Virus record (IMG/VR): IMGVR_UViG_3300007623_000006
Span: 1 to 64,000 of that record
Direction: 5' to 3' (one strand)
DNA length: 64,000 nucleotides
Origin: a virus
A program made the translations under genes and the position numbers. The notes under the pieces were generated by a model that made no database searches, had not been told where the DNA came from, and saw nothing but the letters and a program-made list of their open reading frames with translations. Positions 1 through 43,195 of this stretch are shown here, piece after piece; position 1 is the first letter of the stretch; every line of letters starts with the position of its first letter.

Positions 1-939
1 AAACTAGGTGATGTTGTATCAGTAAAAGATGATGCAAATGACATTACATTCTGGTTATCATTACAAGATAATAACAGAAATGTTACTATACCTAATACAG
101 ATTGGTGGCAAGAAGTAACAGGATATATTGATAGAGGTGATACTTCATTTTATGAAGAATATGTAGATAGAACTAGGTTAGGTGAAGGTCCTACTAATCC
201 TGCTTTAAGTCCTACTCATATAAAAATTGATAATCCTTATGCAAGTGATGGTGTATTTTGGCTTAAACCTAATGGAGTAGCAGAAGCATTCCCTTGTTAT
301 TGTAAGTTTGATAAGTATGGTGCATGGGCATTGGTATGGTCAAACTTAAGAGGATTTAGAAATAGACCTACTACAGGTATAACTTATAATAGTGCTACTA
401 ATGGTACAGCCCCATTATGGAATATACCAAGTGGAATAGGTTTAGTAGATGAAAATGGTAATCCTCTTATCAATGGAAACAAAGAACTTTGGGAAGTATA
501 TACACCTCTAAATCTTTGGAATAAATTAATGGGTGACAAAAAAGGTAAATTGCAATACGAGTGGAGACATAACTATGGGTCTAAAATTGATAAAATGCTT
601 GTATGTGATATTGACCCATTTAATAGTAGTGACTTATACAGATTGAACATATCTAATGCAAAAACAGGTACACAAGCAGGTTTATGGAGTTATCATAGAG
701 GTAGAAGATTTTCTACATATGATAGTGATAATAATGGTGGAGTGCATAATTGTGCATCATACTATTCTAACACACCTTGGTGGTATGGTTACTGTTGGTC
801 AGGGTCTATTAATGGTGGTGGAGAAAATAATGGACACTCATATTATAATGGTGCATATTGGTACTCATCTTGTAGACACTGGGGAGTTTCTTCAGGTCAT
901 GGAGCAGGTAATGGATGGTTGTATATCCAGTTCACATAA
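1..939 (+). CDS. Tail fibre / receptor-binding protein, 3' part, with fibrinogen-like segment (5' truncated)
   Basis: The frame is open from the first base, so the gene starts upstream; 312 residues are visible. The first 40 residues resemble a small carbohydrate-binding module (a 'GDVV' strand, then a TDWWQEV ending). From about residue 77 the pattern ASDGVFWLKPNG, then CYCKFDKYGAWALVW, matches the opening of fibrinogen-like/intelectin-type domains (usually DGVYWI.PNG, C.M...GGWTLV). The C-terminal 70 residues are rich in Gly, Asn, Tyr, Trp, Ser and Cys, like an adhesin tip. I infer a distal fibre that binds host surface sugars. It lies directly upstream of the Fe-S/radical-SAM run with a 33-bp gap, so it could be a client of that run. 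The fibrinogen-like call is from motif recognition only. Confidence 0.7.
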   Translation, partial: KLGDVVSVKDDANDITFWLSLQDNNRNVTIPNTDWWQEVTGYIDRGDTSFYEEYVDRTRLGEGPTNPALSPTHIKIDNPYASDGVFWLKPNGVAEAFPCYCKFDKYGAWALVWSNLRGFRNRPTTGITYNSATNGTAPLWNIPSGIGLVDENGNPLINGNKELWEVYTPLNLWNKLMGDKKGKLQYEWRHNYGSKIDKMLVCDIDPFNSSDLYRLNISNAKTGTQAGLWSYHRGRRFSTYDSDNNGGVHNCASYYSNTPWWYGYCWSGSINGGGENNGHSYYNGAYWYSSCRHWGVSSGHGAGNGWLYIQFT

Positions 940-972: not shown

Positions 973-1974
973 ATGATTAAATTATCAGTAGCGTACACAA
1001 ATCAACTGTACCCTATTTTAAGAAAATACAAAGAGCATATCAATGATATCTACTTTAGCGATGGTGAGTTTGACTCAGCTAGAGGTAGTACATCATTCGA
1101 TGAAGGTGAACACTTATCTATTGAAGAGTTAAAAGAAATTAAATCGTTAGGTATAAAGCTTAACTATGTTCTTAACTCTCCTTACTTACCAAATAGGTTG
1201 TTAAACAAACACAAAGATATTACAGAACATTTACTTTCTCTTAAAGAAGAAGGATTAGTAGATATTATCACTGTTAATAATCTTATTTTAGCAAATAATA
1301 AGCATTTTATGAAAACTTTAAATGAGAACTTTGAAGTTAAAAATAGTGTTAATAATCATATTAATAGTGCTTTAAAAACTAAAGAAATTTGTGAAAGATT
1401 TCCTACAATTGATAATATTATTGTAGATAGAAGTGTTAACAGAAATCCGGAACTAATCAAAGAAATGGCAGACATTTGTCACTCATACGGCAAAAAAATA
1501 ACTGTTCTTATTAACGAAGGTTGTTTATATAACTGTATTTTTAAAAGAGATTGTGACTTAACATTTAGTAGTCAAGATAGTGTTGGTAGTGAAGATAATG
1601 GTATTTTCAACTGTTATAAAGAAAACTTCAAAAAACATAACGACAGATACCTTAAGTCTCCTTGGATGACTGCTGAGGGTGTTGAAATGTTAGAAGGTGT
1701 CGTTGACATATTTAAGATTAGTGGTAGATATGACCCACCAGATGAAATAGAAAAAAGAATTAGATATTACTTATACAATGACAGAGATGTTATGTTAAGA
1801 CATATACTTGATAAAGTTTTAAATGAAAAATATGATGAAATTTATAACTTAAGTATGATGGAATTATCAGTTTGGGGTATGTCAAGAACATTAACTAATT
1901 GTAAAAATGATTGTATGAATTGTGATAAGTGTGATGTGTTCTTAGAAAAATATAAGGAAGATAAAAATGACTGA
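973..1974 (+). CDS. U32-type Fe-S protein (peptidase U32 family-like), copy A
   Basis: This 333-aa protein has the marks of the U32 family, TIM-barrel-like proteins whose studied members (UbiU/UbiV, TrhP, RlhA) carry a 4Fe-4S cluster and act in oxygen-independent hydroxylation. Visible signatures are NEGCLYNC at residues 182-188 with further Cys at 194 and 214, and FKISGR at about 247-252, which corresponds to the K-I-x-G-R motif of the family. A second Cys cluster (CKNDCMNCDKC) closes the protein and may hold another metal site. It is paralogous to the protein at 2670-3626. The start follows a GAAAGG ribosome site at 961-966. Its stop overlaps the next gene by 8 bases, which suggests translational coupling. 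The substrate is unknown; RNA, peptide or small molecule are all possible. Confidence 0.72.
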   Translation: MIKLSVAYTNQLYPILRKYKEHINDIYFSDGEFDSARGSTSFDEGEHLSIEELKEIKSLGIKLNYVLNSPYLPNRLLNKHKDITEHLLSLKEEGLVDIITVNNLILANNKHFMKTLNENFEVKNSVNNHINSALKTKEICERFPTIDNIIVDRSVNRNPELIKEMADICHSYGKKITVLINEGCLYNCIFKRDCDLTFSSQDSVGSEDNGIFNCYKENFKKHNDRYLKSPWMTAEGVEMLEGVVDIFKISGRYDPPDEIEKRIRYYLYNDRDVMLRHILDKVLNEKYDEIYNLSMMELSVWGMSRTLTNCKNDCMNCDKCDVFLEKYKEDKND

Positions 1975-2668
1975 TTTAAACGAAAACCCGTTTTTAACTG
2001 CTATTATTAGACAAAAACAAGAAATCGAATTATTAAGAAATGAGTATGATGTGGCAGAAGATAGATTTGACCACATATTCACTATTAAAAAATTCAAATT
2101 AGATAATCAAATTCTTAGTTATATGGCTATGCCATTTGACTATGAACCTGAACTTGAGAAAAAAGAAATTGAAGCTAATGAATTGGATATTGTTAAACTT
2201 GGATTAATTACTAATGAACAAGTATACATTCTTAATGACTTAGATGTACAAGACCCTGGTCAGACTGTTATGTACGATGAAGAAACAGGTGAAGTATGGG
2301 AAATCAGAATAAAAGTTGAGTGTTTAATAGATGGTTCATATTTTGATGAAAATAAAAAAACTTGGATTTTACCTAAAGGTACTAAAGAAGCTAAGTTTCA
2401 TATTTACCCAATAAAAAACCAAAAAGAGCATTTCGACTTTTCTGAGTTTCACGAGTTTTCAATCAAGTCTATGGAAAAAATGACTAACTACATGATGTTA
2501 AACGACGAAGAAGGTCAAATAAAACTATACTTAGAAAAAGAACCACAAGATATTAAAGCAAACATTATTCAAGATTATTGGGAGCAAGTAATTAGAGTTA
2601 AACTTATCACTAAAGAAGGTGCTAAGAAATGGTTAACTCACTACATTTGTTTTAAAACTAAGGATTGA
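1967..2668 (+). CDS. Unknown partner protein of U32 copy A
   Basis: A 233-aa acidic, mixed alpha/beta protein that I do not recognise. It has no signal peptide, membrane segment or Cys motif. Its last 25 residues (RVKL-x9-WLTHYICFKTK) resemble the end of the 223-aa protein at 3623-4294 (RVKI-x8-LWLTAFIALRANK). Each of the two follows a U32 gene, so the pair looks like a duplicated two-gene module. The gene overlaps U32 copy A by 8 bases and is followed after one base by copy B, so it is surely co-expressed. It may be a chaperone, a substrate carrier or the substrate itself; the sequence does not say which. Confidence 0.6.
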   Translation: MTDLNENPFLTAIIRQKQEIELLRNEYDVAEDRFDHIFTIKKFKLDNQILSYMAMPFDYEPELEKKEIEANELDIVKLGLITNEQVYILNDLDVQDPGQTVMYDEETGEVWEIRIKVECLIDGSYFDENKKTWILPKGTKEAKFHIYPIKNQKEHFDFSEFHEFSIKSMEKMTNYMMLNDEEGQIKLYLEKEPQDIKANIIQDYWEQVIRVKLITKEGAKKWLTHYICFKTKD

Positions 2669-2669
2669 T

Positions 2670-3626
2670 ATGAAATTATCAATTCCTTATGTTAGAGGTA
2701 TATCTAAAATAATTAAAGAATATAAAAATAACATTTATGATGTTTATTTTACAGATGATGTACTTCAATCTGCTAGACCCAGAACTACACATAACACTGA
2801 ATATATGAACTTATATAAAGAAATGGAAGAAATAAGAGTACAAGGTGTTAAAAGAACTTTTCTTCTTAACTCTATAATGATTAATGACCCATCACTAAAA
2901 GATTTAAGAAGTGACCCAGTTAGAAAAACAGTTAATCATTTAGCAAGAATTAAGGATAAATATGATATAATAACTGTAAACAACTTAATGTATCTGTACG
3001 ACCCTGATTTTATAGAAGTTACTCAAGGTAAAAAATTAAAAAATTCAGTTAATAATAAAATTGACAGTTTATATAAACTGGAAGAATGTTTTAAAATTAC
3101 CGATTGGGATGCTATTAATATAGATAGAAGAATCAACAGAAACAATAAACTTATTAATCAAATGTGCAAAGCCGTTAGAGATAAGGGTGCAGTTTCATAT
3201 GTATTAGTAAATGAAGGTTGTCATTGGGACTGTATATTTAAAGAATATTGTGATATTTCTATGACAGACCGTAACCAAATGACATCATTTAGTTGTTTAG
3301 AACACTATAATATAGGTAAACCTGAAAGTTACCTTAAGACTCCATTATTATTTCATGATAATGTTCAACATATAGATGCAGATGTATTTAAAATAAGTGG
3401 TAGATTCAATCCTGTCGATATTATAGAAAAAAGAATAAGACATTACTTGTATGGTGAAAATATTACTTTAGGTGAATTAATTGATAAACCTTTTGAAGAA
3501 GGTGACCCAGTTGAGCATATGGACTATAAAACATTAAATAAATATAGTATGACAGAATACTTATACGATTGTAAAAATAACTGTTTAAATTGTAGTAAGT
3601 GTGACAATATAAGGAATATTTTATGA
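2670..3626 (+). CDS. U32-type Fe-S protein, copy B
   Basis: A 318-aa paralogue of the protein at 973-1974. Shared blocks include LSxxY near the start, a TVNNL strand, KNSVNN, a [IV]DR.[IV]NRN stretch, NEGCHWDCIF (copy A: NEGCLYNCIF), DVFKISGRFNP, EKRIR.YLY and the C-terminal CKNNCLNCSKC cluster. The putative Fe-S ligands are therefore conserved in both copies, which argues that both are active and not decaying duplicates. Identity is clearly partial, so the duplication is not recent or the copies have specialised. The next gene starts within the last four bases. Oxygen-independent hydroxylation is the known chemistry of better-studied U32 members; applying it here is inference. Confidence 0.72.
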   Translation: MKLSIPYVRGISKIIKEYKNNIYDVYFTDDVLQSARPRTTHNTEYMNLYKEMEEIRVQGVKRTFLLNSIMINDPSLKDLRSDPVRKTVNHLARIKDKYDIITVNNLMYLYDPDFIEVTQGKKLKNSVNNKIDSLYKLEECFKITDWDAINIDRRINRNNKLINQMCKAVRDKGAVSYVLVNEGCHWDCIFKEYCDISMTDRNQMTSFSCLEHYNIGKPESYLKTPLLFHDNVQHIDADVFKISGRFNPVDIIEKRIRHYLYGENITLGELIDKPFEEGDPVEHMDYKTLNKYSMTEYLYDCKNNCLNCSKCDNIRNIL

Positions 3627-4294
3627 TACCATTAACTAGAAAATTTTATAACTCTATAGTTTATCACAGGAAAGCAATTAACAGGTCAATGCCTATACTA
3701 ACTAGTGATTTTAATACTATCTCATTTATATACCACAAAGCGTCTGGTGTTGTTGAAAGTTTATCTTCAACACCACTATCACTAAGTGCAGATAATCAAT
3801 TTTTATATGAAGCCGTTAATCTTACAGAATTTACACCAGAAACAAAAGAACTAATAAGAAACTACAAACATACATTTGGTAAGAGTCAACTTATATGGGA
3901 CAGTGAAAAGAAAGAGTTTGATGTGTTAACATTAAACTACAATGTAAGAAAGTATACAAGATTTATAGAAGAAATTAATTTGTATGATGTAGACTATGAT
4001 AATGAATTTATTATAGATTTTAGTGTTACTAATCTTAAAGGAGAGGAAATTGATTTATCAAATTTTAGTGAAGTTTCACTAAAAAATATGGGTGATAAAG
4101 ATAAAAAGAATGATATGTCAATAAATAACATAAGCGGAAAGGAAACAATCCAGCTACCAAAAGAAAATGACCAATGGTTTAGAGTAACTATAAATGACTT
4201 TAACGAGGAAAATGTAGTTAGAGTAAAAATTAAACATATTGAACATCAAACTTTATGGCTTACGGCCTTTATAGCTCTTAGAGCAAACAAATAA
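3623..4294 (+). CDS. Unknown partner protein of U32 copy B
   Basis: A 223-aa protein not recognised. The central part is beta-rich and the C-terminus (RVKI, then LWLTAFIALRANK) echoes the C-terminus of the 233-aa partner of U32 copy A. It has no Cys, so it is not an Fe-S protein. Its start overlaps the U32 copy B stop by 4 bases (ATGA), the classic coupling arrangement. It is followed by the first radical-SAM gene 13 bases downstream, with GAAAGGA as ribosome site. A role as accessory or scaffold of the U32 enzyme is inferred from position only. Confidence 0.58.
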   Translation: MIPLTRKFYNSIVYHRKAINRSMPILTSDFNTISFIYHKASGVVESLSSTPLSLSADNQFLYEAVNLTEFTPETKELIRNYKHTFGKSQLIWDSEKKEFDVLTLNYNVRKYTRFIEEINLYDVDYDNEFIIDFSVTNLKGEEIDLSNFSEVSLKNMGDKDKKNDMSINNISGKETIQLPKENDQWFRVTINDFNEENVVRVKIKHIEHQTLWLTAFIALRANK

Positions 4295-4307
4295 CGAAAG
4301 GAATTAT

Positions 4308-5471
4308 ATGGTTTTTGATATTAATGTTACAAGTAGATGTAATCTTGCTTGTACTTATTGTTCAGAAGGTAATGAGTGTGGGTTGAGTTCAATTCAATCT
4401 GCTAACACGCAAGTCGATGTATTTGACTTATATAAATTTATAGACAAGTTTCCAGAGGAAGAAACATTTGAATTATTCTTCTGGGGTGGTGAACCAATGC
4501 TAAATTGGGCTTACTGTAAAGAGGTAATTGACCATTATATAGATGATAAAAGATTTGGTTTTTATTTTTATACTAACGGTATGTACATAGATAGATACTG
4601 GGATGATATTTTAGAATTACACAAAAAAACAAAATACCAAAATCATGGTGGAAAAGGTAGATTACACTTCCAAATTTCTTACGATGGTGACCCTATTAAT
4701 GAGATTGAAAGAATTGATAAAAAAGGTAAAACTGTTTCTTGGAAAGTTAAAGAAAACTATGAAAAATTAAGACAGGAAGGTATATCAACTTCTCTTAAGT
4801 CTGTTATTGTTGCAAGAAGTTTTAAACACATTTATGAAGCATATTTAGATGTATCTGCTATCAACTTTAACTATTCTCCTACACCAGATTCATTTTCACA
4901 AATGACAGAAGAAGAGTTTCAACCATTCTTAGATGAATTAGGTGAAGGACTAAAAAATATTGCTAAACACATATATGACAATAATTTACCACCTGAAACA
5001 TTTGCTTGGTTCCAAGATAGTAAAAAGTTATGTGGTGCAGGTAAAGGGTACTACTCAATCGACCTTAATGGAGACTTAAGTCCTTGTCATGGTTGTATGT
5101 ATAGAGACACCGATACACATAAAGTTGGTAATGTAAATGAAATCCTTGCAGATGATATTAATATTAAAGACTACTTAGAAACTGTTAGTCAAGCATACAA
5201 AGAAGGACACCATAAAACAAATGAGTGTTTATCGTGTGACGCACTTTATTGTTTAAAATGTCCAGTTGGGTGTTTTGACAAGTCTGACAAAGGACAAAGT
5301 GATAAGGCAAATGACGAATTGAGATTTACTGACCCTGAATATTTTGAAAAATGGTCAGATGCAAATGCAAATTGGCAAATGTGTAAAGTGTTTAAGCTTT
5401 CAGACAAATACCATAAAGCACTTAGATATGCACTTAACTTAAGAGCACAAAAATTACAAAATGTTAAATAA
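4308..5471 (+). CDS. Radical SAM protein with SPASM-type C-terminus (1)
   Basis: A 387-aa protein with the radical-SAM cluster motif Cx3Cx2C at residues 11, 15 and 18 (RCNLACTYC) and the SAM-binding GGEP at 60-63. The C-terminal third has a SPASM-like set of cysteines: 242, 260, 263, 307, 310, 315, 318, 322 and 359, including the G-x-L-x-P-C step of that domain. SPASM proteins of this size (anaerobic sulfatase-maturating enzymes, RiPP maturases) modify side chains of peptides or proteins, using SAM and auxiliary 4Fe-4S clusters. The cysteine-repeat protein at 8772-9917 or the fibre at 1-939 are candidate substrates. The gene ends inside a strong hairpin, so it may close a transcript segment. 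Confidence 0.85.
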   Translation: MVFDINVTSRCNLACTYCSEGNECGLSSIQSANTQVDVFDLYKFIDKFPEEETFELFFWGGEPMLNWAYCKEVIDHYIDDKRFGFYFYTNGMYIDRYWDDILELHKKTKYQNHGGKGRLHFQISYDGDPINEIERIDKKGKTVSWKVKENYEKLRQEGISTSLKSVIVARSFKHIYEAYLDVSAINFNYSPTPDSFSQMTEEEFQPFLDELGEGLKNIAKHIYDNNLPPETFAWFQDSKKLCGAGKGYYSIDLNGDLSPCHGCMYRDTDTHKVGNVNEILADDINIKDYLETVSQAYKEGHHKTNECLSCDALYCLKCPVGCFDKSDKGQSDKANDELRFTDPEYFEKWSDANANWQMCKVFKLSDKYHKALRYALNLRAQKLQNVK

Positions 5472-5492
5472 GACTTTTTTGGTCTTATTTAA
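5464..5492 (+). terminator. Hairpin at the end of the first radical-SAM gene
   Basis: An 11-bp perfect stem (arms 5464-5474 and 5482-5492) with a T-rich 7-base loop includes the stop codon of the gene. No T-tract follows the stem on the plus strand, so it may be a partial terminator or a 3'-end stabiliser, not a strong Rho-independent terminator. Confidence 0.5.
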
Positions 5493-5522
5493 ATAAATAA
5501 AAATAAATTATAAAGGATTTTG

Positions 5523-6614
5523 ATGTTTACATTAGAATTACTAGTTACAGAAAAGTGTAACTTAGGTTGTCCTTATTGTTATGTTGCTAATAAAAACAAG
5601 TTTATGACAAAAGAGACATTTGACAAAAAGTTTGACCAATTACATGACCTTGTTAGAAGAACAGGTGAGAAAGATTATCATATTTCTTTCTTTGGTGGTG
5701 AACCATTATTAAATTGGGAATTGATAGAGCACGCTGTTCCTAAATTTAAAGCAGACCCTCTTTGTAAAGGTATCGTTATTATTTCTAACTTTACACTAAT
5801 TGACCAAGAGAAATCTGACTTTTTATTAAAGAACGGTGTAGGTGTATCATGGTCATTTGATGGTATTACATCAAACGAAACTAGACCTCTTATTAAAACT
5901 CCCGAAAATGATGGTTACTACGGTACACCTGAAGGTATCCTTAAAATGTACGAAGATAAAAAGGACTTAATCCTACGGCATGTACAAGGTTGTAAATTTA
6001 TGGTATGGCCTGGTAATAGTCAATTAATGACAGAAAACTTAGAATTCTTTGCTGATTGGGGTATACCTTTCCCTGACTATTCACTTGTAAGAGATGATGT
6101 ATGGTCAATTGAGGATATTAAAAACTTTAAAACTGACTTAAGAGCACTAGGTGATAGAACTATTAAGTACCTTATGGAAGAAGAAAAAATGGTTATGCCT
6201 GGTTTCTTTAGTTTATCTATTATGGATTCTATGTTAGGACTATCTAAAGGTAAAAGACCATTTGGATGTTTTGCAGGTTGTAGAGGTGTTGCTATTATGC
6301 CTGATGGTGAGGTATACCCTTGTGCTAGATTTGGGTCTAAAAGAATTATGGAAATTGATGAAAATTATGATTTCTCATATTACCAAAGTAAGTTTAAACC
6401 TGAGAATTATGATAAATGTAAAACTTGTGACATTGAAAAAATATGTAATGCTGGTTGTACATACAGTCAGGTAAGAAACGACAACAAACCGTTAGACAGT
6501 ATTTGTGAATTATTTCACATTATTACAGAAGAAAGTTACAGAGTACTAGACGAGTGTAAAGACAGTCCGTTATTACAACAGTATTTCTTAAACGCATTTA
6601 ACAATATAGGATAA
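5523..6614 (+). CDS. Radical SAM protein with SPASM-type C-terminus (2)
   Basis: A radical-SAM protein of 363 residues from the ATG at 5523, placed 5 bases after an AAAGGA site; an in-frame TTG one codon earlier is less likely. The motif KCNLGCPYC sits at about residues 11-19 and FFGGEP at about 56-61. The C-terminus holds a typical SPASM pattern: C..GC with a GxxxxPDGxVYPC step (about 249-267), then CKTCDIEKICNAGC (about 299-312) and a last Cys near 328. It is closest in architecture to peptide/protein-modifying maturases. Its cysteine spacing differs from that of the radical-SAM protein at 4308-5471, so the two are unlikely to be recent duplicates. Confidence 0.86.
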   Translation: MFTLELLVTEKCNLGCPYCYVANKNKFMTKETFDKKFDQLHDLVRRTGEKDYHISFFGGEPLLNWELIEHAVPKFKADPLCKGIVIISNFTLIDQEKSDFLLKNGVGVSWSFDGITSNETRPLIKTPENDGYYGTPEGILKMYEDKKDLILRHVQGCKFMVWPGNSQLMTENLEFFADWGIPFPDYSLVRDDVWSIEDIKNFKTDLRALGDRTIKYLMEEEKMVMPGFFSLSIMDSMLGLSKGKRPFGCFAGCRGVAIMPDGEVYPCARFGSKRIMEIDENYDFSYYQSKFKPENYDKCKTCDIEKICNAGCTYSQVRNDNKPLDSICELFHIITEESYRVLDECKDSPLLQQYFLNAFNNIG

Positions 6615-6618
6615 TATT

Positions 6619-6828
6619 ATGGCTGGAATGACTATTAAAGAATTAGAAGACGCATTAGAAACTGCTAAAGTACAAATGGCTAAAGTTGACAGTGAATATG
6701 TTAATTATGACCACAGAGGTCACTTGTTTGATTATGATATAGATTATGTTAAATTTATTAATAATATAGCATATGTTATTAAAGAAGGTACTAGAAAAGG
6801 TCTAGACTTTAAAAATCAAGGAAGATAA
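6619..6828 (+). CDS. Small protein between radical-SAM genes
   Basis: A 69-aa protein not recognised. It starts 4 bases after the preceding radical-SAM gene and ends directly before the start of the next one. The N-terminal half is predicted helical (MTIKELEDALETAKVQM) and the second half is rich in Tyr, Asp and Phe. It has no Cys. Small proteins in such positions can be leader-binding or precursor peptides in maturation clusters; no RRE-like (PqqD-type) fold can be confirmed by eye. Confidence 0.55.
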   Translation: MAGMTIKELEDALETAKVQMAKVDSEYVNYDHRGHLFDYDIDYVKFINNIAYVIKEGTRKGLDFKNQGR

Positions 6829-7671
6829 ATGAAACAAGAGGAAAACAACAAACCTACCGAAAATGGTAATGTTAACATTTTGTATTTTACTACAAAATGT
6901 AACCTCGATTGTACATACTGCTATGAAGATTTAGGTAATAAAGAGAAAAAATCTACTTCTTTAGAAGACTTAAAAAAACAAGTCGATGAGATTATAGCAA
7001 CTGAACCAATTGATACTCAGACATTATTTGTATTATTTGGTGGTGAACCTACTTTAGAATGGGATAATGTTAAAGGTGTAGTAGATTATGCTTACAGTAA
7101 AAAACAAAATGTATTCTTTAATTTAGAAACAAATGGAATAAAATTTTTAGACCAAACTTTTCTAGATGATTACTTAGATTTTTTTAAAAATAAACCACAT
7201 TCACTTGATATATCATTTGATGGTATAGGCAATCACTTAAGACAAGACCATAAAGGTAATGATAGCACTCAACAACTATTAGATGTGCTACATATTTTTA
7301 AAGAATTACCTTGGGTTAATTGGAGAATACGATACACTATAACTAAAGCAAACTTTAAAGATTTTGCAAGTGATGTAGTTAAACTAGGTAAATCATTTGG
7401 ACCTAGAAGAATAATTACAAGTGAAGATAGTGACTCATTTACCCAAGCTGATTATTATCATATAAATAAACAAAAGACTGTTTTAAAACATCTTTGGGAT
7501 ACAGATAAGTTAGATATACCAATATGTAATATTTTCTGTGATAACTGTACAGGGTGTGAAAGCTCTAAAGCAAACAAAAGATATTACAAAGATGGTCAAA
7601 TGGTTGACAGTATTGAAGTCAAAGATAATCAAGGTGAGTTCTCACACTTTAAAACAAAAAAAGGCAAATAA
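6829..7671 (+). CDS. Radical SAM protein (3), short, with a C-terminal four-Cys cluster
   Basis: A 280-aa protein with KCNLDCTYC at residues 23-31 and LFGGEP at 69-74. No full SPASM domain is present. Instead the C-terminus has CNIFCDNCTGC (Cys 233, 237, 240, 243), which could bind one auxiliary cluster. A basic tail follows. It fits tightly between its neighbours: it begins right after the 69-aa gene and its stop shares a base with the next start. It is the third radical-SAM gene of the run and differs in architecture from the other two, so three different reactions or three steps are plausible. The substrate is unknown. Confidence 0.82.
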   Translation: MKQEENNKPTENGNVNILYFTTKCNLDCTYCYEDLGNKEKKSTSLEDLKKQVDEIIATEPIDTQTLFVLFGGEPTLEWDNVKGVVDYAYSKKQNVFFNLETNGIKFLDQTFLDDYLDFFKNKPHSLDISFDGIGNHLRQDHKGNDSTQQLLDVLHIFKELPWVNWRIRYTITKANFKDFASDVVKLGKSFGPRRIITSEDSDSFTQADYYHINKQKTVLKHLWDTDKLDIPICNIFCDNCTGCESSKANKRYYKDGQMVDSIEVKDNQGEFSHFKTKKGK

Positions 7672-8174
7672 TGAAAGAAAGCGAATACAAAGAACTTATA
7701 CAAGAAAAGTTTTATGATGTAATGTCTAAATCTGCAATTGTACAAGAAAAAAATCCTGAAATAGGTGAAGTTTTACAAGATATGACTGAGTTATTAGTGT
7801 TACTTTTTGAAAGACATTCAGAAGCATTTAAACACTTTGACAATAATATTATGGGGTTATCTGGTGATGTAGCACAATTACACCAAGAAGTACAAAATGC
7901 TAGTTCATGCTGTGGTACAGGTACTTGTGGTACAGGTTCAACTCAACCAGCAACACTTCAAGGAATGGAACAAGAAATGTCTGGAGAAATGTTTGACCTT
8001 GCTGCTGACATTATGGGTGGTGATAATGATAATAATGGATATGTTCAATATATAAATAATAAAAGAAAAGAAGTTAAAGAGTATGTTACTAAAGGTGAAG
8101 AAGTTGAGAATGAAACTCAATTAGATGCTGATATAGCAACACTAGGTAACTTTATAGATAAAAAATTGAGGTAG
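7671..8174 (+). CDS. Helical protein with a Cys-Gly-Thr-Gly island
   Basis: A 167-aa acidic protein, mostly helical by composition, not recognised. Around residues 82-95 it has SCCGTGTCGTGS, the only cysteines in the protein. A short Cys/Gly island inside a soluble helical protein next to radical-SAM genes could be a modification site or a metal site, so this is a second candidate substrate besides the heptad-repeat protein. Its start overlaps the stop of the third radical-SAM gene by one base. Confidence 0.58.
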   Translation: MKESEYKELIQEKFYDVMSKSAIVQEKNPEIGEVLQDMTELLVLLFERHSEAFKHFDNNIMGLSGDVAQLHQEVQNASSCCGTGTCGTGSTQPATLQGMEQEMSGEMFDLAADIMGGDNDNNGYVQYINNKRKEVKEYVTKGEEVENETQLDADIATLGNFIDKKLR

Positions 8175-8177
8175 ACA

Positions 8178-8762
8178 ATGATTTCATTAGACACAATACT
8201 TTACAAAATAAACCTTATGGTTAAAAAAGAAAAATACGATGATGCAATATTAGTATTAGAAAATGCAATTGAAGATGACTTAGTTAATACAGAAGATGAA
8301 AAAACACTTAGTATTAAATATTTACAATTGTTACTTTTAAGAAAAACACCTGAAGATATCCAAAACTTTAGAGAATGGTGTGAAAAGTTAAAAAAAGAAG
8401 AATTTGACCCTAAAATGTCAGAATATGTTTATAACTTTGTTTCTTATTTACTAACTTATGGTGAATTAACTTATACAGACGAAGAATATAAATTGTATAA
8501 GGAAATTATTAGTTGGAACAAAAAACACTTCTTTTATATTACTCTTGTATTAAATGAAATTTCATTTTTACATGAAAATCCAGAAGAAAGATTTGAAGCA
8601 CAGGTAACTGCAATGGAAGAGTTTTTTGAAGGATTAACTGACGAAGAAGAAGAATTAGCAAAAGAGTACTTTGGTGAGATTAAAGCTAAAATTCAATCTA
8701 AACCTGAATTAAATTCAGATGATACAAGAATGTTAGAATTATTTTACATTCTAGATATATAG
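8178..8762 (+). CDS. Helical (possibly TPR-like) protein
   Basis: A 194-aa, acidic, almost entirely helical protein. The N-terminal stretch with NLMVKKEKYDDAILVLENAI has the spacing of a TPR-like helical hairpin. It has one Cys and no signal or membrane segment. It lies 3 bases after the Cys/Gly-island gene and 9 bases before the heptad-repeat gene, so it may help fold or hold that product. Function is not known. Confidence 0.55.
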   Translation: MISLDTILYKINLMVKKEKYDDAILVLENAIEDDLVNTEDEKTLSIKYLQLLLLRKTPEDIQNFREWCEKLKKEEFDPKMSEYVYNFVSYLLTYGELTYTDEEYKLYKEIISWNKKHFFYITLVLNEISFLHENPEERFEAQVTAMEEFFEGLTDEEEELAKEYFGEIKAKIQSKPELNSDDTRMLELFYILDI

Positions 8763-8771
8763 GAAATTATT

Positions 8772-9917
8772 ATGGCAGTAAGTAAAGCATTATTAGACAA
8801 ATATATTAAATTATTCAAACTGCCTGCTGGGTCTACTTGGGATGATGTTCTAGCTGAAAGACAAAGAAGAAAAGATAATAGTAATCCTTGTTACACAAAT
8901 GCTACAAACTTTGACTACTCTGCTCAATTAACAGATGAACAAATCATTGAAAATATGAGAGATTCAATTGAAAGAGAAAAGAAAAGAAGAGCAGTCCAAT
9001 GGGATTACGAAGCATACTCTAGTTGGGAAGAAATCAAAGAATTAGCATACCCCGATAAACAAGAAACTGATATGACTGAAGTAGACAAAAAATATGTCGT
9101 TAGGTCAGAAGCAATTAGAGAGTTAATATCTAGAATTAATGCACTTGGGTCGTTTTCAGTACCTAATCCTGAGTCATACGAACCAGGACAAGTAATTAGT
9201 AAAGATAAAGTTAAAGTACTTGGTAAGACAATTAATGACAACGAAATAGCATGTCTTTGTGATTGTAACTACTGTACTTGTGATTGTAACTACTGTACTT
9301 GTGATTGTAACTACTGTACTTGTGATTGTAACTACCACGATAATTTAGTTAAGTCTTCATATTTTGGAACTACAACGGATTATGGAGATTCAGGTACTAA
9401 AAATAGAGGTAAAACAAGTGTAGATGATAAAACAGTTTGGGATAAAAGTGTAAACACAACAGATGGCACTATTTGGGCAATTGATTGGTGTAACTGTGAT
9501 TGTAACTACTGTACTTGTAATTGTAACTATTGTACTTGTGATTGTAACTACTGTACTTGTGATTGTAATTATTGTACTTGTGATTGTAACTACTGTACTT
9601 GTGATTGTAACTACTGTACTTGTGATTGTAACTATAAAAACGCTATGTATAGATATTGGTTCAGAGCAAACCCATACGACAGTACAAAATATGATGGTAC
9701 ACAATATGCGTATGGTTCAAGAAGTTCTAGCGGTAGTGTAAGTTCATACTGTACTTGTGATTGTAACTATTGTACTTGTGATTGTAACTATTGTACTTGT
9801 AACTGTAACTATTGTACTTGTAACTGTAACTACTGTACTTGTGACTGTAACTATTGTACTTGTGACTGTAACCAGTGTGTTGTATTCTACTACGGTAGAT
9901 GTAGAGCTTGGGGTTAA
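8772..9917 (+). CDS. Cysteine-heptad-repeat protein (17 copies of C-T-C-D-C-N-Y), probable substrate of the Fe-S enzymes
   Basis: A 381-aa protein. Residues 1-160 are a soluble, charged, helical leader-like domain. Residues 161-188, 240-288 and 327-368 hold 4, 7 and 6 perfect or near-perfect heptads of the form C-T-C-[DN]-C-N-Y, giving 51 cysteines in repeats. The blocks are separated by spacers of 51 and 38 residues rich in Ser, Gly, Thr, Tyr and Trp. The C-terminus ends CVVFYYGRCRAWG. Such density calls for metal binding, disulfide or thioether cross-linking, or enzymatic modification. The gene directly follows the radical-SAM/U32 genes and precedes the PP-loop gene, so a matured structural or surface protein is my inference. 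The layout of leader plus repeated core resembles multi-core RiPP precursors, but a metal-binding or solenoid structural protein fits as well. Confidence 0.8.
   Translation: MAVSKALLDKYIKLFKLPAGSTWDDVLAERQRRKDNSNPCYTNATNFDYSAQLTDEQIIENMRDSIEREKKRRAVQWDYEAYSSWEEIKELAYPDKQETDMTEVDKKYVVRSEAIRELISRINALGSFSVPNPESYEPGQVISKDKVKVLGKTINDNEIACLCDCNYCTCDCNYCTCDCNYCTCDCNYHDNLVKSSYFGTTTDYGDSGTKNRGKTSVDDKTVWDKSVNTTDGTIWAIDWCNCDCNYCTCNCNYCTCDCNYCTCDCNYCTCDCNYCTCDCNYCTCDCNYKNAMYRYWFRANPYDSTKYDGTQYAYGSRSSSGSVSSYCTCDCNYCTCDCNYCTCNCNYCTCNCNYCTCDCNYCTCDCNQCVVFYYGRCRAWG
9252..9335 (+). repeat. Cys-heptad block 1 (4 x 21 bp)
   Basis: Four tandem 21-bp units encoding C-[LT]-C-D-C-N-Y. The first unit has Leu for Thr. 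Units 2-4 are identical at the DNA level, which suggests recent unit copying or strong homogenisation. Confidence 0.95.
9489..9635 (+). repeat. Cys-heptad block 2 (7 x 21 bp)
   Basis: Seven tandem 21-bp units in frame with block 1. Unit 1 has Asn for Thr and unit 2 has Asn for Asp. A few synonymous AAC/AAT and TAC/TAT changes are present, so the protein pattern is kept while the DNA drifts. Confidence 0.95.
9750..9875 (+). repeat. Cys-heptad block 3 (6 x 21 bp)
   Basis: Six tandem units. Units 3 and 4 read CTCNCNY and the last ends in Gln instead of Tyr. GAT/GAC and TAT/TAC variation is higher than in block 1, which points to an older block under selection for protein sequence. Confidence 0.95.
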
Positions 9918-9933
9918 TTTAAAGGAGATTTAA

Positions 9934-10926
9934 GTGAATATAATTTATTATAATTTTGATTATGAATATTTCACAAATATTTTATCGTTAAAAATGGAAG
10001 TGAGAGACGGAGGTCTTTCACTATATGAAAGTTTATTTAGTAGACTTTATGGTATTGGTGCTATAGATAGAACTAAAAAGTTACCTAAGTCTATTAATAC
10101 AGTATCTAAATTCCCTATTCCTAGTGTAATAACAGATTTACCTAGTTATAGTGAAATAGTAGAAGAAAATGCACAGAAAATTAAAAGTTCTTTTGTAGAT
10201 GATTTACCTGCAATAATGTATTACGACGGTTCAATTGATGCAACAGTTGCTTTATTAGCTATGGTTGATGTTGATGTAAAACCTGTTTTAAATGTGTCTG
10301 AGAGCGTCTACAACACACAAAAAGATTTAATTAGTAGTCTGGGTTTAGAAACTGTGATAAACGAAAAGAGAGAGTACGGAGAAGACATTAAACACTATAA
10401 TATTATTAATTATGCTTTAGGTAAAGTTATAAATGATTGTGATTATGCGTATTCTGTATCAAATGAAGATAGTTATTTAAATTTGGGTGTAGATGAATTT
10501 AAAACATACTTAGAGTCTTTATTAGTTAGCGATACATTAATTAATACATTAGATGAGCAATTTAACGCAATTATAAGCATATCACCGGTAGATTTAAATA
10601 CAGTATATAGTGTAATAAAATGGACATCTTTTAATTTTGCGTACCAAGGTCTAACTTTTGATAAATGGTACGACAATAAAACTGTATGGAGAGCAAATCA
10701 AACAGTACATAATTTTTATAATACTGATAAGTTTCAAAGATATAGTTTAAATAATATTAATAAAGAAATTAGCGTAGATAATTTTAAGATTGATGCTCTA
10801 GACTATATAAAATCTAAAACTGATAAGTTTGCAGGAAAAGGATTAGTGTACATAGATGATACTAAAACTGCTTTAAGATTTATTAGTGATGAATATAAAC
10901 CATTTAGAGACATTGGATTTGATTAA
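9934..10926 (+). CDS. PP-loop ATPase-like protein (asparagine-synthase / ATP-pyrophosphatase fold), divergent
   Basis: A 330-aa protein starting at GTG, with AAAGGAG 5 bases upstream. Residues about 92-105 read AIMYYDGSIDATVALLA, which fits the PP-loop pattern (SGGxDS followed by a hydrophobic helix) in a degenerate form, and the next strand/helix layout is right for that fold. PP-loop enzymes adenylate a substrate to form amides, thioamides or modified bases. In RiPP clusters, asparagine-synthetase-like members form lactams. As the last gene of the run it may act on the heptad-repeat protein. The loss of the canonical SGG means activity is uncertain. It overlaps the convergent minus-strand gene by 4 bases. 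Confidence 0.5.
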   Translation: MNIIYYNFDYEYFTNILSLKMEVRDGGLSLYESLFSRLYGIGAIDRTKKLPKSINTVSKFPIPSVITDLPSYSEIVEENAQKIKSSFVDDLPAIMYYDGSIDATVALLAMVDVDVKPVLNVSESVYNTQKDLISSLGLETVINEKREYGEDIKHYNIINYALGKVINDCDYAYSVSNEDSYLNLGVDEFKTYLESLLVSDTLINTLDEQFNAIISISPVDLNTVYSVIKWTSFNFAYQGLTFDKWYDNKTVWRANQTVHNFYNTDKFQRYSLNNINKEISVDNFKIDALDYIKSKTDKFAGKGLVYIDDTKTALRFISDEYKPFRDIGFD

Positions 10927-12849: not shown

Positions 12850-13641
12850 TTATTGACATTTTTCAATATACCATCCAATATATTTTATATTACCGCTTTT
12901 TTGATGTTTTATAATATCGTTTGGTCTACATTTGCTATACAATCTTTTATCTTTTCTTGCTTTTAATAATCCATTAGGTAAATTATTATCTTTTATAAAA
13001 TCACTTAACTTATAACCATTAATAATATTATATATTATATTATCATCTTTGTTTTTTATACAGTATGAATATAACCATTTAGTGGAATCAATACCAATTT
13101 TAGAATCTACACAGTAATAACCATTTGTTTTTTTATCTCTTTTATTATATATAGGCATACCATAATTATCAGCAGATTTTTTAATATTAGTGTAACATAT
13201 ACCAATATCTTTTGATTTCTTTACATAATCACCATTACATTCAGCAATAATATTATGATTATTGTCATATATTGTTATTGTCCTTGCTCTACCATTATCA
13301 GAACCGAAATTTTTTGTAGGTGTAAAATCGTGTATCTTAGATATAGTATCACCTCCATCACCACCAATAGTCATATTATACCCATTATTAAATGTATTAT
13401 AATATTTTATCCAATACTCTTCCCTAATATCAATATTTTCATCACTTATATTGTCTTCTAATATACTAGTTTCAAAATTATCAATTCCATATTTTCTTAA
13501 TGCTCGGTGAAATACATTATTAGACCCATTATTACTACTTCTTATGTGTTGATTTAATCTATAATCTACTTTATTTTTTGTTTTTCCTATATAAGATTTT
13601 CCATTTATTTTATTAGTATGTTTATATATTTTATTTCTCAT
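12850..13641 (-). CDS. GIY-YIG homing endonuclease
   Basis: A 263-aa protein starting with a GIY-YIG nuclease domain: KIYKHTN, then SYIGKTKN and RLNQHI with the following helix, residues 4-60. The C-terminal part has repeated modules like the DNA-binding tails of phage free-standing homing endonucleases (ITIYDNN and GYKLSDFIKDNNLP). It is inserted between the spanin pair and the Cas4-like nuclease gene without an obvious intron. It is distinct from, but related in plan to, the endonuclease that splits the DNA polymerase at 43196. It is likely a selfish element. Confidence 0.86.
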   Translation of the reverse strand: MRNKIYKHTNKINGKSYIGKTKNKVDYRLNQHIRSSNNGSNNVFHRALRKYGIDNFETSILEDNISDENIDIREEYWIKYYNTFNNGYNMTIGGDGGDTISKIHDFTPTKNFGSDNGRARTITIYDNNHNIIAECNGDYVKKSKDIGICYTNIKKSADNYGMPIYNKRDKKTNGYYCVDSKIGIDSTKWLYSYCIKNKDDNIIYNIINGYKLSDFIKDNNLPNGLLKARKDKRLYSKCRPNDIIKHQKSGNIKYIGWYIEKCQ

Positions 13642-14655: not shown

Positions 14656-15421
14656 TTTGTTCTCCGTTAATATAACTATTTATTTCGTCTACTAGTGTAT
14701 TAGGCAAATCATCTACTTTTGGAGTTTCAACTATTAATTTTACATATAAATCACCTGAAGTGTTATATCTAGAGTTTGGTAGTCCTTTACCTTTTAGTCT
14801 TATTCTCTTTGATGAATCAATTCCACCACCCAATTTAACTTTACCTATTACATTATCCCATAATTTTATATCAAGTGTAGTACCTAAAATTAATTCAAAA
14901 ACATTTACTTTTTGTTCTATTTCTAAATCAAGTAAATCAACTTTTTTTATATTATCATCATTTTTTACAAATATAGTAAATATAAGGTCACCAACTCTAC
15001 CAGTTTGTTTACTTTTGACACCCTTTCCTTGAAATACTATTTTAGTACCAGATTGTAATCCTTTAGGTACAACCAATTCTTCTATTTGATTTGAATATAC
15101 TTCAACAAATACTTTAGCACCTTCGTATGTATCTCTTAATGAAACTGTAACATTTCTTTGTATGTCTAAGTTTTCTTTAAAATGTTTATGAAAATTGTGG
15201 AAATTGTCAAATGGATTATTTTTACTGTTTAATGTAAAGTCGTATTGTTTTCTCTTTTTGTCGTCTGAAAGAGTTGAGTATGCTTCGTTAATCTGTTTAA
15301 AAGTCTCTTCACATCCATCCTGAGTGTCAGGATGATGTTTTTTAGCGAGTCTTCTATATGATTGTTTAATATCCGCCGAAGTGGCTTGTTGATTTATTTC
15401 AAGTGTTTCGTAATGTGTCAT
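14633..15421 (-). CDS. DnaJ-like co-chaperone (J domain plus C-terminal domain, no zinc finger)
   Basis: A 262-aa protein with an N-terminal J domain (residues 1-60) containing the catalytic HPD at 30-32. A short linker and a DnaJ C-terminal substrate-binding domain (about 90-250, with VVPKGLQSGTKIVFQGKG and the LRLKGKGLP-type step) follow. It lacks the Cys-rich zinc region, as in CbpA-type proteins. It would stimulate host DnaK, probably for phage assembly or replication-complex remodelling. A TATAAT-type -10 lies about 20 bases upstream on the minus strand (15442-15447). Confidence 0.9.
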   Translation of the reverse strand: MTHYETLEINQQATSADIKQSYRRLAKKHHPDTQDGCEETFKQINEAYSTLSDDKKRKQYDFTLNSKNNPFDNFHNFHKHFKENLDIQRNVTVSLRDTYEGAKVFVEVYSNQIEELVVPKGLQSGTKIVFQGKGVKSKQTGRVGDLIFTIFVKNDDNIKKVDLLDLEIEQKVNVFELILGTTLDIKLWDNVIGKVKLGGGIDSSKRIRLKGKGLPNSRYNTSGDLYVKLIVETPKVDDLPNTLVDEINSYINGEQNGTKQDT

Positions 15422-15441
15422 ATAAAATCTTTTTTTGATTT

Positions 15442-15447
15442 ATTATA
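15442..15447 (-). promoter_or_regulatory. Candidate sigma70-type -10 before the DnaJ gene
   Basis: ATTATA on the plus strand reads TATAAT on the minus strand, about 20 bases before the DnaJ start. No clear -35 is seen, as in many promoters of Campylobacterota. Confidence 0.4.
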
Positions 15448-15465
15448 CAACACTTTTACTTAAAT

Positions 15466-16773
15466 TTAACTTATACTGATAGTACCATCACCATTATCTA
15501 CAACAGAACCAACAATTGTTGAATCTTGTCTACCATATTTTTCATTGTCAAGTGTATACATAGTATCTATTAAGTTTGAGAATGTTGTGCTTTCTGTACC
15601 TAAATATTTCCATCCATTAACAAAAATGTCATATTTAATACCAATTGAGAAATCTAATACAGGGAAATCTAAATTAATATCAAAATTAATATCTTCAATA
15701 ATAACATTTCTAGTATCAAATACTCCTTTAGTCATATCTAGTTCTAATTCAGAAACTTCGTCATATGTAGCACCTACTGGTCTTCTGTTCATTAATAACC
15801 CTCTTGGTGAATAATGTAATTTGTTAACATCTGTTTTAAATCTTTGCATTTTACTGTACTTAACCACTTCATAACCATTTGTATCTTTCATTACAAGTTT
15901 ACCAACAACATAAACTTTTTTAGATTTAGTTAATAAAGCAACATAATTATCACCAGCAATAGCAGTATTAATAATAGTATCTGAATCGTATTTATCACCT
16001 GCATTTGGTAAAAATTTATTTAATAATACCCATTGATGTGTCGCATAACCTATATTATCAGTAAATTGATGATTTAAGTTTGAACCACATGCCCATACAT
16101 TGTTATTTTTTCTAATTATAGTGAAATCATTCCCACATGCTACTTCATATACATTAGCACCGTCGTATGAATTTCCATCAAAATCAACCCCTACTAAAGA
16201 AGCTTCAACTGAATATATTCCTCTATTCATTGATGATGTAAAGTTTGTATTAGATAATTCAGAAACAGGAGTATATATATTTCTATCAGCATAATCACTT
16301 AAATCAGTGAATACTACTTTTTTTGGTACATAAACGATGTCATTTACACCACTTACTCTAGAATCGTTCAATACTCCACATTGACCATAAGAGTTATCAC
16401 CCCATAACCATACATCCCCTTTACTATCTAAAGCTACATTGTGGTTTAATCCAGCATCAACTGAAACTATATTAACATTCTCAGGGAATGTAACATATGC
16501 AGGGCTGTATCCGTTTTCAATCGAGTGTGTATTCGACCAACCTAATTGACCTTTAGAGTTGTCACCAAATGTCATAACTCTATTATCCATTGTTAAAACG
16601 ATAGTATGGTTTAAACCTGTTGCCACTTGTCTAACACTATCCATAATCTTTTTTTGTTCTTTAGAAAAACTAGTAGTGTCAGTACTAATACCTAACTGAC
16701 CATATGTATTACTTCCAACTCCATATAAACCACTGTTTTCATCTATGAACATAGCGTGATATGATAAAATCAT
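15466..16773 (-). CDS. RCC1-repeat (beta-propeller) protein 1
   Basis: A 435-aa protein whose first 240 residues carry RCC1-type repeats, each with a G.N..GQLG core: GVGSNTYGQLG, FGDNSKGQLG, LWGDNSYGQCG and ACGSNLNHQF. The C-terminal part, with DFSIGIKYDIFVNGWKYLG, is a separate beta domain. RCC1 propellers are common in eukaryotes and occasional in bacteria; in phages they are rare and probably serve as structural binding modules. It is grouped with a 508-aa protein and a second RCC1 protein on the same strand. I infer a tail or fibre accessory. Confidence 0.8.
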   Translation of the reverse strand: MILSYHAMFIDENSGLYGVGSNTYGQLGISTDTTSFSKEQKKIMDSVRQVATGLNHTIVLTMDNRVMTFGDNSKGQLGWSNTHSIENGYSPAYVTFPENVNIVSVDAGLNHNVALDSKGDVWLWGDNSYGQCGVLNDSRVSGVNDIVYVPKKVVFTDLSDYADRNIYTPVSELSNTNFTSSMNRGIYSVEASLVGVDFDGNSYDGANVYEVACGNDFTIIRKNNNVWACGSNLNHQFTDNIGYATHQWVLLNKFLPNAGDKYDSDTIINTAIAGDNYVALLTKSKKVYVVGKLVMKDTNGYEVVKYSKMQRFKTDVNKLHYSPRGLLMNRRPVGATYDEVSELELDMTKGVFDTRNVIIEDINFDINLDFPVLDFSIGIKYDIFVNGWKYLGTESTTFSNLIDTMYTLDNEKYGRQDSTIVGSVVDNGDGTISIS

Positions 16774-16795
16774 ATGTTTCTCCTTTTTTATTATA

Positions 16796-18322: not shown

Positions 18323-19197
18323 TTGTTTCCATCTCCTTCAACCCATAATGGTTTTTCATATATTGAATTTCCCATTACTACAATAAGTTTCTTTTGGTCT
18401 TTACTAATACTTATATCAGTTATACCTTTATCAAGTCTAACACCTGCACTTGTCTGACAGTAACCTTTAAACTGTGGTTGTTGACCATACATAATAACAC
18501 TAATTTCACCTAAGTTTTCAGATTTAGTACTTTCTGTAATCATAAAAAGATTGTCTCTTGTTGGTATTATTTTTTTAATATCTTCACCATATACTTCAAT
18601 AGAACCAAAGTGAGTATCACCATCTTCCATTTTTGTTGCTGGCATATTGTATTTTGCCCAATCACCTTGTATATAAAGTTTACTTGTACCTTCTAAAATG
18701 TTTTTTAACATATATACCATTACAGTTTCACCCATTGCTACATATGTAACTTTATTGTATGGTGTTATATAATCTCTAATTGTGTTAGGGTATTTAACAA
18801 ATTCAGTTTTCGATGAGTTGTACATTTTACCTAAAAACATAGCAACACCATTTTTAAAATAAAGTGTTGACACCGGACCACAAACAAAATCTTCAACATC
18901 ATTATCTATAAGTGTAGCACCTTCTAAATAAGGACCTCTTGATGGACCAATTTGACCGTATTCATTATTACCAAATCCATATAAATTTCCACTTTCGTCT
19001 AAATAACAAGTATGAAAATATCCATAATCGTATCTAACAGCAGCTTCAGCTACAATAATTTTTTTAGTTTCAGGGATATACATATCAGTATTTTTAAACC
19101 CTAGTCCGTGATGAACATTTGAACCATATATGTATAATTCATTCCAAGGACTTAGATAATGTGTCATTTGATATATTTCATTATCGTTGTATTTCAT
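18316..19197 (-). CDS. RCC1-repeat (beta-propeller) protein 2
   Basis: A 293-aa protein with RCC1-type blades: ELYIYGSNVHHGLG near residue 16, then LYGFGNNEYGQIGPSRG around 68-84. Later blades are more degenerate (LYIQGDW, VIMYGQQPQFKG). It is shorter than a complete seven-blade propeller (about 350-400 aa). The two RCC1 proteins share repeat style but little else, so they are not recent duplicates. Confidence 0.75.
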   Translation of the reverse strand: MKYNDNEIYQMTHYLSPWNELYIYGSNVHHGLGFKNTDMYIPETKKIIVAEAAVRYDYGYFHTCYLDESGNLYGFGNNEYGQIGPSRGPYLEGATLIDNDVEDFVCGPVSTLYFKNGVAMFLGKMYNSSKTEFVKYPNTIRDYITPYNKVTYVAMGETVMVYMLKNILEGTSKLYIQGDWAKYNMPATKMEDGDTHFGSIEVYGEDIKKIIPTRDNLFMITESTKSENLGEISVIMYGQQPQFKGYCQTSAGVRLDKGITDISISKDQKKLIVVMGNSIYEKPLWVEGDGNKC

Positions 19198-43129: not shown

Positions 43130-43167
43130 ACATACTAAGTACAAATTACACATCTATAATACCATAC

Positions 43168-43175
43168 TATAAATA
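43168..43175 (+). promoter_or_regulatory. T4-type late promoter before the inserted endonuclease
   Basis: TATAAATA 20 bases before the GIY-YIG gene at 43196. A late promoter inside an early gene is typical of phage homing endonuclease genes. Confidence 0.65.
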
Positions 43176-43195
43176 TACATAAAAAGGTATACAGT

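Follow-up and report, generated by a model that had tools for sequence, protein, structure and literature searches.

A phage gene cassette pairing radical-SAM enzymes with a cysteine-array protein: a probable maturation system for attachment tips

Closest described systems

In the freyrasin-type ranthipeptide system (NF047865), the radical S-adenosylmethionine (rSAM) enzyme PapB, which carries a SPASM domain, links Cys to Asp or Glu by a thioether and tolerates Cys-Xn-Asp spacings with n = 0-6 (PMC9413430). The locus reported here, a run of twelve genes at positions 973 to 10,926 of a 64,000-nucleotide stretch of viral DNA (the window; positions 1 to 64,000 of the IMG/VR record IMGVR_UViG_3300007623_000006), resembles the PapB system in combining rSAM and SPASM domains with a putative substrate, CysR, whose repeated Cys motifs place Cys near Asn or Asp. 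It differs in having several enzymes (rS1, rS2, and rS3), in motifs of the form CxCxC[ND] and not six Cys-X3-Asp/Glu units, and in the substrate, which for PapB is a small leader-core peptide and here is mostly a phage protein of 155-530 residues with a folded domain and a C-terminal array. The definition of a ribosomally synthesized and post-translationally modified peptide (RiPP), a short precursor from which a modified core is released, does not describe such substrates, given their usual length and an N-terminal domain modeled with a predicted local distance difference test score (pLDDT) of ~95.

The SCIFF maturase CteB offers a second comparison, since in profile searches the nearest solved structure for both rS1 and rS2 is 5wgg, which we take to be CteB, and its substrate is likewise rich in Cys; that substrate, however, is a short clostridial chromosomal peptide, whereas the one here is linked to phage fiber genes. 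In the maturation of quinohemoprotein amine dehydrogenase by QhpD-QhpC, rSAM/SPASM chemistry makes thioether crosslinks in a functional protein subunit and not in a natural product. QhpD (TIGR03906) thus provides a protein-subunit precedent and is among the higher NCBIfam hits of rS2, but substrate and biology differ and the score is 79 bits against a cutoff of 453. The S74 tail fibers and tailspikes (T5 pb1, K1F endosialidase) are comparable in that Ser-x4-Lys directly follows the array in most CysR homologues and that fiber genes adjoin the locus; here, however, cleavage would expose a Cys array and not a beta-structured domain, the S74 domain is sometimes split over two genes, and CysR itself lacks one. 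Finally, the two U32-like proteins of the run (U32a and U32b) recall UbiU-UbiV, RlhA, and TrhP, in that two paralogues lie near each other and a U32 structure is the first fold match, but both fall below Pfam detection, the Cys spacing differs (Cx3C) with an extra C-terminal CxxxCxxCxxC, and each is accompanied by an unrelated partner.

Among phages, the Campylobacter Firehammerviruses (CP220, CPt10, IBB_35) have homologues of rS1 and rS2 and a Cys-array protein, although in those phages the two rSAM genes do not share an operon. Six rSAM genes have been noted in Campylobacter group II phages, with enzyme activation or DNA methylation offered as ideas, and that account draws no link from these genes to a Cys protein (PMC3322345). 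The array protein of CP220 (gp140) is annotated as hypothetical with 21-bp repeats, and that of CP21 (GenBank HE815464, CP21_105) as an N-acetylneuraminate pyruvate lyase, a name that looks wrong. In a literature search of open-licence papers, which leaves room for a description elsewhere, we found no account of the motif, of phage rSAM fiber systems, of phage ranthipeptides, or of an rSAM-Cys protein link. An earlier reading of the letters alone (the sequence-only reading) knew of no described U32 plus Cys-heptad system.

Recurrence of the rSAM genes with Cys arrays

The pairing seen in the window recurs in dozens of phages. In a forward scan, two CxCxCxY units in tandem were sought across 2.9 million viral contigs; of the 64 matches, once read in all frames, about 45 encode a real array protein, the rest being antisense or chance frames. 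Where a real array locus has enough flanking sequence, relatives of rS1 (~28-48% identity), rS2 (34-58%), and rS3 (24-45%) lie in most cases by the array gene, and in the closer loci a relative of the 69-residue protein (sm69) is beside it as well. Counterparts of U32a, U32b, their partners prtA and prtB, and the genes g167, g194, and g330 are absent from the other cassette loci. Recurring neighbor families 9 and 13 are rSAMs and both matched rS3; profiles of families 2, 5, 7, 10-12, 14-16, and 20 gave no match to a window protein that exceeded shuffles. In 84,980 bacterial and archaeal species genomes, a tighter array motif picked out only four stretches, all of them in contigs of metagenome-assembled genomes (MAGs).

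The association was also read in the reverse direction, with the rS1 family alignment alone and no use of array information. Against the viral collection this returned 222 rS1 relatives, and among the best 80 loci, which were kept, 46 hold at least two CxCxCx[YFHW] units in a single protein, while about two dozen carry a second type of array, for example CICNSDCACNLVCSCHNDCGCNY, in the gene directly 3′ of rS1. A Cys array is thus present in ~73 of the 80, often in the adjacent gene, and the range extends from Campylobacter Firehammerviruses to environmental phages. Of the remainder, two loci run off the end of the contig (L088, L107), a third has its array gene broken (L119), and the other four (L120, L121, L123, L162) contain no array; when the threshold is relaxed, 37 of 38 rS1 clusters (70% identity) come with an array. 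Relatives of rS2 at ≥35% identity lie near an array in 18 of 22 cases, and weaker ones, generic rSAMs among them, in 14 of 56. The same 12 Campylobacter phages hold rS1, rS2, and the array gene. When array type is mapped on a tree of 53 rS1 proteins, one change suffices, versus ~14 with shuffled labels. As judged from gene neighborhoods, the conserved core of the cassette is rS1, rS2, the 69-residue protein, rS3, and the Cys-array protein.

Several observations lie at the edge of this set. Faecal "Bacteriophage sp." records matched by rS1 and rS2 (MT836984, MT836452, MT835472, and similar) resemble pieces of bacterial chromosomes and were set aside; MT836984 contains a SCIFF-like peptide gene. 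Additional viral contigs have dense Cys arrays of other motifs (CSGCSGC, SCNSDCADGCGSD, CSCNATCYGYVA) close to PapB-like rSAM genes (L212:5570-7474 and 14656-15750; L234:7381-7938; L239:5159-6013; L200:496-894; L250:9087-9932), and from these the phage Cys-array class may be much wider. Single viral contigs can have many rSAM matches: 11 in L039 (G006, 68 kb), 8 in L014 (G011, 46.5 kb), and 9 in L114 (G012, 157 kb). Around the array gene of four loci (L030, L052, L057, L064) there are glycosyltransferase, UDP-glucose dehydrogenase-like, and further rSAM genes, possibly a second modification module.

The array, the fiber tip, and the likely chemistry

CysR contains 17 heptads, 16 of them CxCxCxY and one CxCxCxQ, which gives exactly the 51 repeat cysteines counted in the sequence-only reading; exact matches to the tandem heptad pattern number 14 in the window, versus 0.00 expected from shuffles. 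The protein consists of an N-terminal domain (residues 1-160), arrays of 4, 7, and 6 heptads, and a Cys-containing C-terminus. Its Cys-free N-terminus matches a profile of 62 homologues at E 6.9e-8 (28.7 bits; best of 1000 shuffles, 7.6). Over 353 units, position 2 is Thr in 73%, position 4 Asn or Asp in 90%, position 6 Asn or Asp in 95%, and position 7 Tyr in 83% (otherwise Phe or His), with a spacing that is mostly 7 or 8. AlphaFold, run on 34 homologues, is confident for the N-terminal domain (pLDDT ~95 across most of residues 41-170) and leaves the array disordered (pLDDT 35-39), as would be expected where a segment depends on modification or a metal. A fold search with the N-terminal domain found no similar fold in PDB; that of L052:1205-1804, a short array protein with four heptads, has a weak structural likeness (E 0.002-0.5) to uncharacterized rudivirus and myovirus proteins. 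CysR also matches PHROG 26958, an unnamed family from which no function is gained, and tblastn of GenBank phages with the full Cys protein gave no match, the array being masked by the low-complexity filter. Comparison of the repeats within the window (105 synonymous and 163 nonsynonymous differences) was set aside because a few units dominate it.

Among 63 non-redundant array proteins, Ser-x4-Lys follows the array in 40 and the protein ends at most 10 residues past the last CxC in 17, so that 57 of 63 have either the stop codon or Ser-x4-Lys at the end of the array. The latter marks the start of Peptidase_S74 (PF13884): nine array proteins score above the Pfam gathering threshold with the domain beginning right after the array, and in some phages the domain appears to be split, the array gene keeping the catalytic Ser/Lys start and the next gene coding for the remainder (L048:6040-6321; L047, L019, L033). 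S74 is a chaperone of tail fibers and tailspikes that cleaves itself off immediately ahead of this serine; in T5 pb1 the cut falls before Ser1264, with Lys1269 at +5, and loss of the chaperone unmasks the receptor-binding end (PMC4690869). A Ser/Lys dyad is also found in endosialidases and MYRF (PMC3742443). Hence both groups, those with a stop codon and those with a self-cleavage site after the array, would yield a mature chain ending with the array. Tail-fiber protein genes lie upstream of the cassette in other phages wherever this was tested. The sequence-only reading had proposed an anaerobic maturation cassette tied to a Cys-rich surface or virion protein in a fiber locus, and recurrence, the C-terminal array, and the upstream fiber genes support that idea. 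It had allowed either the array or the fiber tip just upstream (the open reading frame, or ORF, ending at 939) as the target, and of these the upstream tip is the less likely.

What the enzymes might do to the array is suggested by their relatives. The 111,096-base record has no rSAM genes besides rS1, rS2, and rS3, and Pfam bears out the sequence-only reading in calling all three. The rS1 and rS2 families have the rSAM CxxxCxxC plus seven further invariant Cys in the SPASM region, in keeping with PapB-type clusters, and the rS3 family has one four-Cys site, Cx3Cx2Cx2C. The best NCBIfam match for all three is PapB (81 bits for rS1, 130 for rS2, 83 for rS3), far under the curated cutoff of 340, so that none is a member; the next matches include Nif11, QhpD, and SCIFF maturases. 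CteB acts on a Cys-rich peptide by thioether chemistry. Because the nearest families, PapB and CteB, make Cys thioethers, thioether crosslinking is by analogy the leading candidate for the chemistry on the array. A QueE-like protein, CPt10 gp17, was dropped from the rS3 relatives as an outlier in the alignment.

The rSAMs might instead modify the array by other means, such as conversion of Cys to formylglycine in the manner of anSME, epimerization, C-C crosslinks, or methylation. anSME structures (4k36/4k37) are also among the nearest PDB chains for rS1 and rS2, having three different rSAMs hints at more than one reaction, and the Asn/Asp and Tyr of the heptad are conserved almost as strongly as Cys; on the other hand, PapB and CteB outrank anSME for rS1 and rS2, and the array has no CxPxR motif of the anSME type. 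We regard non-thioether chemistry as a possibility to be kept in view, on the doubtful side.

We propose that the cassette serves an oxygen-independent maturation of protein encoded by the phage itself: three rSAMs, two with full SPASM auxiliary-cluster sites and one with a single four-Cys site, would act together with a small helper on the Cys array of a structural protein, in which a folded N-terminal domain would anchor or present the array. The enzymes would most likely turn the array into a rigid crosslinked structure, probably by joining Cys through thioethers to neighboring residues (N/D/T/Y) as PapB and CteB do; in most relatives the array would be the mature C-terminal end of a tail-fiber or adhesin tip, freed by a stop codon or by S74 self-cleavage, and this tip would contact the host. 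The probable explanation of the locus is RiPP-like maturation of a phage attachment tip.

A number of points weigh against it. The proposal is built on sequence, which shows the linkage of the genes, the conservation of the array and its C-terminal place in relatives, the fusion to S74 with its catalytic dyad, and the co-variation of array type with rS1; that these enzymes modify the array, the thioether chemistry, the place in the virion, and receptor contact are inferred. The co-variation of array type with the rS1 tree would also be expected from vertical inheritance of a linked cassette. A few array contigs show no rSAM: G001 (60 kb) and G008 (44 kb), along with three fragments that are short, all of which may be incomplete. 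The shortfall of all three rSAMs from the PapB cutoff counts here too, and since UDP-glucose dehydrogenase, glycosyltransferase, and more rSAM genes share the locus elsewhere, some rSAMs could act on sugars. Lastly, CysR of the window has no S74 motif and carries a Cys-containing tail past its last array, ending in ...CNQCVVFYYGRCRAWG, so that its role as a tip rests on homology; the CP220 array protein is likewise odd.

In a different account, the array is a metal-binding, Fe-S-binding, or disulfide tip without covalent radical modification and the rSAMs target something else in the module, such as a surface sugar or tail-fiber residues. Three Cys in seven residues are natural ligands for a metal or cluster, genes for UDP-glucose dehydrogenase and glycosyltransferase are found with the cassette in many phages, and an array unfolded in AlphaFold is expected for a metal site as well. 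Yet the sugar genes are outside the twelve here while rS1-rS3 and the array are retained; rS1 follows the array nearly one to one, array type included, and adjoins the array gene in loci of the second type; and the nearest enzyme families work on Cys peptides. This account is accordingly judged unlikely. A broader form of the maturation proposal would make the locus one member of a widespread, undescribed class of tips, in which a C-terminal Cys array becomes a multicyclic crosslinked knob through dedicated phage rSAMs, each motif type (CxCxCxY; CxCNxDCxCN; others) is matched to its own enzymes, and S74 self-cleavage exposes the product; we hold it tentatively, at slightly short of an even chance.

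Layout of the locus and the U32-like pair

The record from which the window comes belongs to a T4-like phage, and its terminase is 44% identical to that of Vibrio phage phiKT1024 and 37-39% to those of Campylobacter Firehammerviruses. ORF calling over 973-10926 returned exactly twelve genes, all on the plus strand, as the sequence-only reading had described, and most junctions are short overlaps or tiny gaps (973-1974/1967-2668; 2670-3626/3623-4294; 6829-7671/7671-8174). The features are collected in Table 1.

Table 1. Genes and repeat arrays of the locus, with window positions (aa, amino acids)
Feature	Position	Strand	Basis or remark
Upstream tail-fiber-like protein, C-terminal part	1..939	+	Pfam Fibrinogen_C E 3.9e-8, residues 208-289
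U32a, U32-like, 333 aa, C-terminal CxxxCxxCxxC	973..1974	+	38% identical to U32b; conserved Cys set with two viral homologues; add-on, outside core
prtA, partner of U32a, 233 aa, without known family	1967..2668	+	29% identical to prtB; no above-cutoff Pfam match
U32b, U32-like, 318 aa	2670..3626	+	Foldseek best match 5d88 E 1.5e-5; hhalign to E. coli U32 proteins E 2.2e-4
prtB, partner of U32b, 223 aa, without known family	3623..4294	+	29% identical to prtA; no above-cutoff Pfam match
rS1, radical SAM + SPASM, core	4308..5471	+	Pfam PF04055 2.7e-10, SPASM 4e-5; 7 invariant SPASM-region Cys in family
rS2, radical SAM + SPASM, core	5523..6614	+	Pfam; best NCBIfam PapB 130 bits (cutoff 340); closest PDB 5wgg
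sm69, small conserved 69-aa core protein	6619..6828	+	E 1.6e-20 to the small-protein family profile of the cassette; relatives (~44% identity) lie between rS2 and rS3 in other loci
rS3, radical SAM, C-terminal Cx3Cx2Cx2C in place of full SPASM, core	6829..7671	+	Pfam PF04055 4e-17; 42% identical relatives upstream of array genes
g167, unshared, sits where family 5 sits in other phages	7671..8174	+	no profile match to family 5 beyond shuffles
g194, unshared	8178..8762	+	no above-cutoff family match; other loci without counterpart
CysR, Cys-array protein, 381 aa	8772..9917	+	17 heptads / 51 Cys; N-terminus matches homologue profile
Heptad array 1, 4 units	9252..9335	+	heptad pattern
Heptad array 2, 7 units	9489..9635	+	heptad pattern
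Heptad array 3, 6 units	9750..9875	+	heptad pattern
g330, unshared	9934..10926	+	no meaningful match in Pfam, NCBIfam, PHROGs, PDB sequences

U32a and U32b are paralogues, each followed by its partner, and in that respect the sequence-only reading of two U32-type proteins with partners stands; the U32 assignment itself is plausible at superfamily level. Pfam Peptidase_U32 (PF01136) has no match in either protein at E < 0.1, and a more distant phage U32-like protein reaches E 0.0018, under the cutoff. The first Foldseek hit of U32b is 5d88 (U32 peptidase Mk0906), at E 1.5e-5 with a TM-score of ~0.3 from a low-confidence model (pLDDT 53); hhalign against E. coli UbiU, UbiV, TrhP, and RlhA gives a weak match (E 2.2e-4, probability 45%). 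Shared motifs, such as FKISGR against LKIEGR, add to the support. The four-Cys motif of the UbiU/RlhA type is absent from the pair, which has a different spacing (Cx3C plus later Cys) and the extra C-terminal CxxxCxxCxxC. IsdC and YgiN, the sole PDB sequence matches of the U32 alignment, were treated as chance.

No match to U32b was found in GenBank phages by tblastn, and close U32 relatives are absent from the other cassette phages. Profile searches brought up only two further viral relatives (L085:7994-9631 and L086:9929-11553), fused or adjacent to Methyltransf_24 and just past tail-fiber genes, in contigs whose records hold no array and no rS2 relative. Six cassette phages from the clade closest to the window do carry a more distant U32-like gene, located further downstream. 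Since relatives occur without the cassette and recur in those six phages, U32 is by its distribution an add-on, a recurring accessory of fiber modules outside the core; the pair and its partners would perhaps carry out a second O2-independent modification.

Known U32 enzymes such as TrhP and RlhA hydroxylate RNA, and the pair could accordingly modify tRNA or rRNA with no tie to the fiber. That the phage U32 relatives sit with a methyltransferase, as does a U32 pair in a MAG, is in keeping with such a role; the U32-like gene is nonetheless directly past tail-fiber genes in three separate phage lineages, and its Cys set is unlike that of the RNA-modifying U32 proteins, which leaves an RNA target rather unlikely.

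The sequence-only reading had joined U32 proteins, partners, rSAMs, a PP-loop-like protein, and the Cys protein in one set, and had taken homologues occurring apart from each other in related phages as evidence against it. All the genes form a single tight run, and the distant U32-like gene of the six nearest-clade phages would fit a single obligatory system. Such a system is nevertheless very improbable: seven of the twelve genes are without counterpart in the other cassette loci, the nearest U32 relatives occur apart from array and rS2, and the PP-loop assignment of g330 found no support, its sequence giving no profile match and no SGGxDS loop, only a degenerate YYDGSIDAT. The pairing of rSAM genes with the Cys array thus survives a neighborhood search that the U32 pair, as an obligatory part, does not; the maturation idea of the sequence-only reading comes out much strengthened and widened, with a shorter list of parts.

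Elsewhere in the window, inspection by eye found a DNA polymerase reading frame (42077-45881) broken by a GIY-YIG-like ORF (43196-43903), a second GIY-YIG-like ORF (12850-13641), and ORFs with RCC1-like repeats (GxGxNxYGQLG; 15466-19197).

In kind, the cassette would be rSAM/SPASM peptide maturation, and the new element would be its setting, a phage attachment tip. If the proposal is right, phages make post-translationally crosslinked structures exactly where host attachment is decided, and do so with enzymes that have so far been met mainly in the making of bacterial peptide natural products. The proposal would also bring to light new enzyme families that work on long repeat arrays, and it would give a concrete reason for the many radical-SAM genes of Campylobacter group II phages, one that is testable in the isolates CP220, CPt10, and IBB_35.

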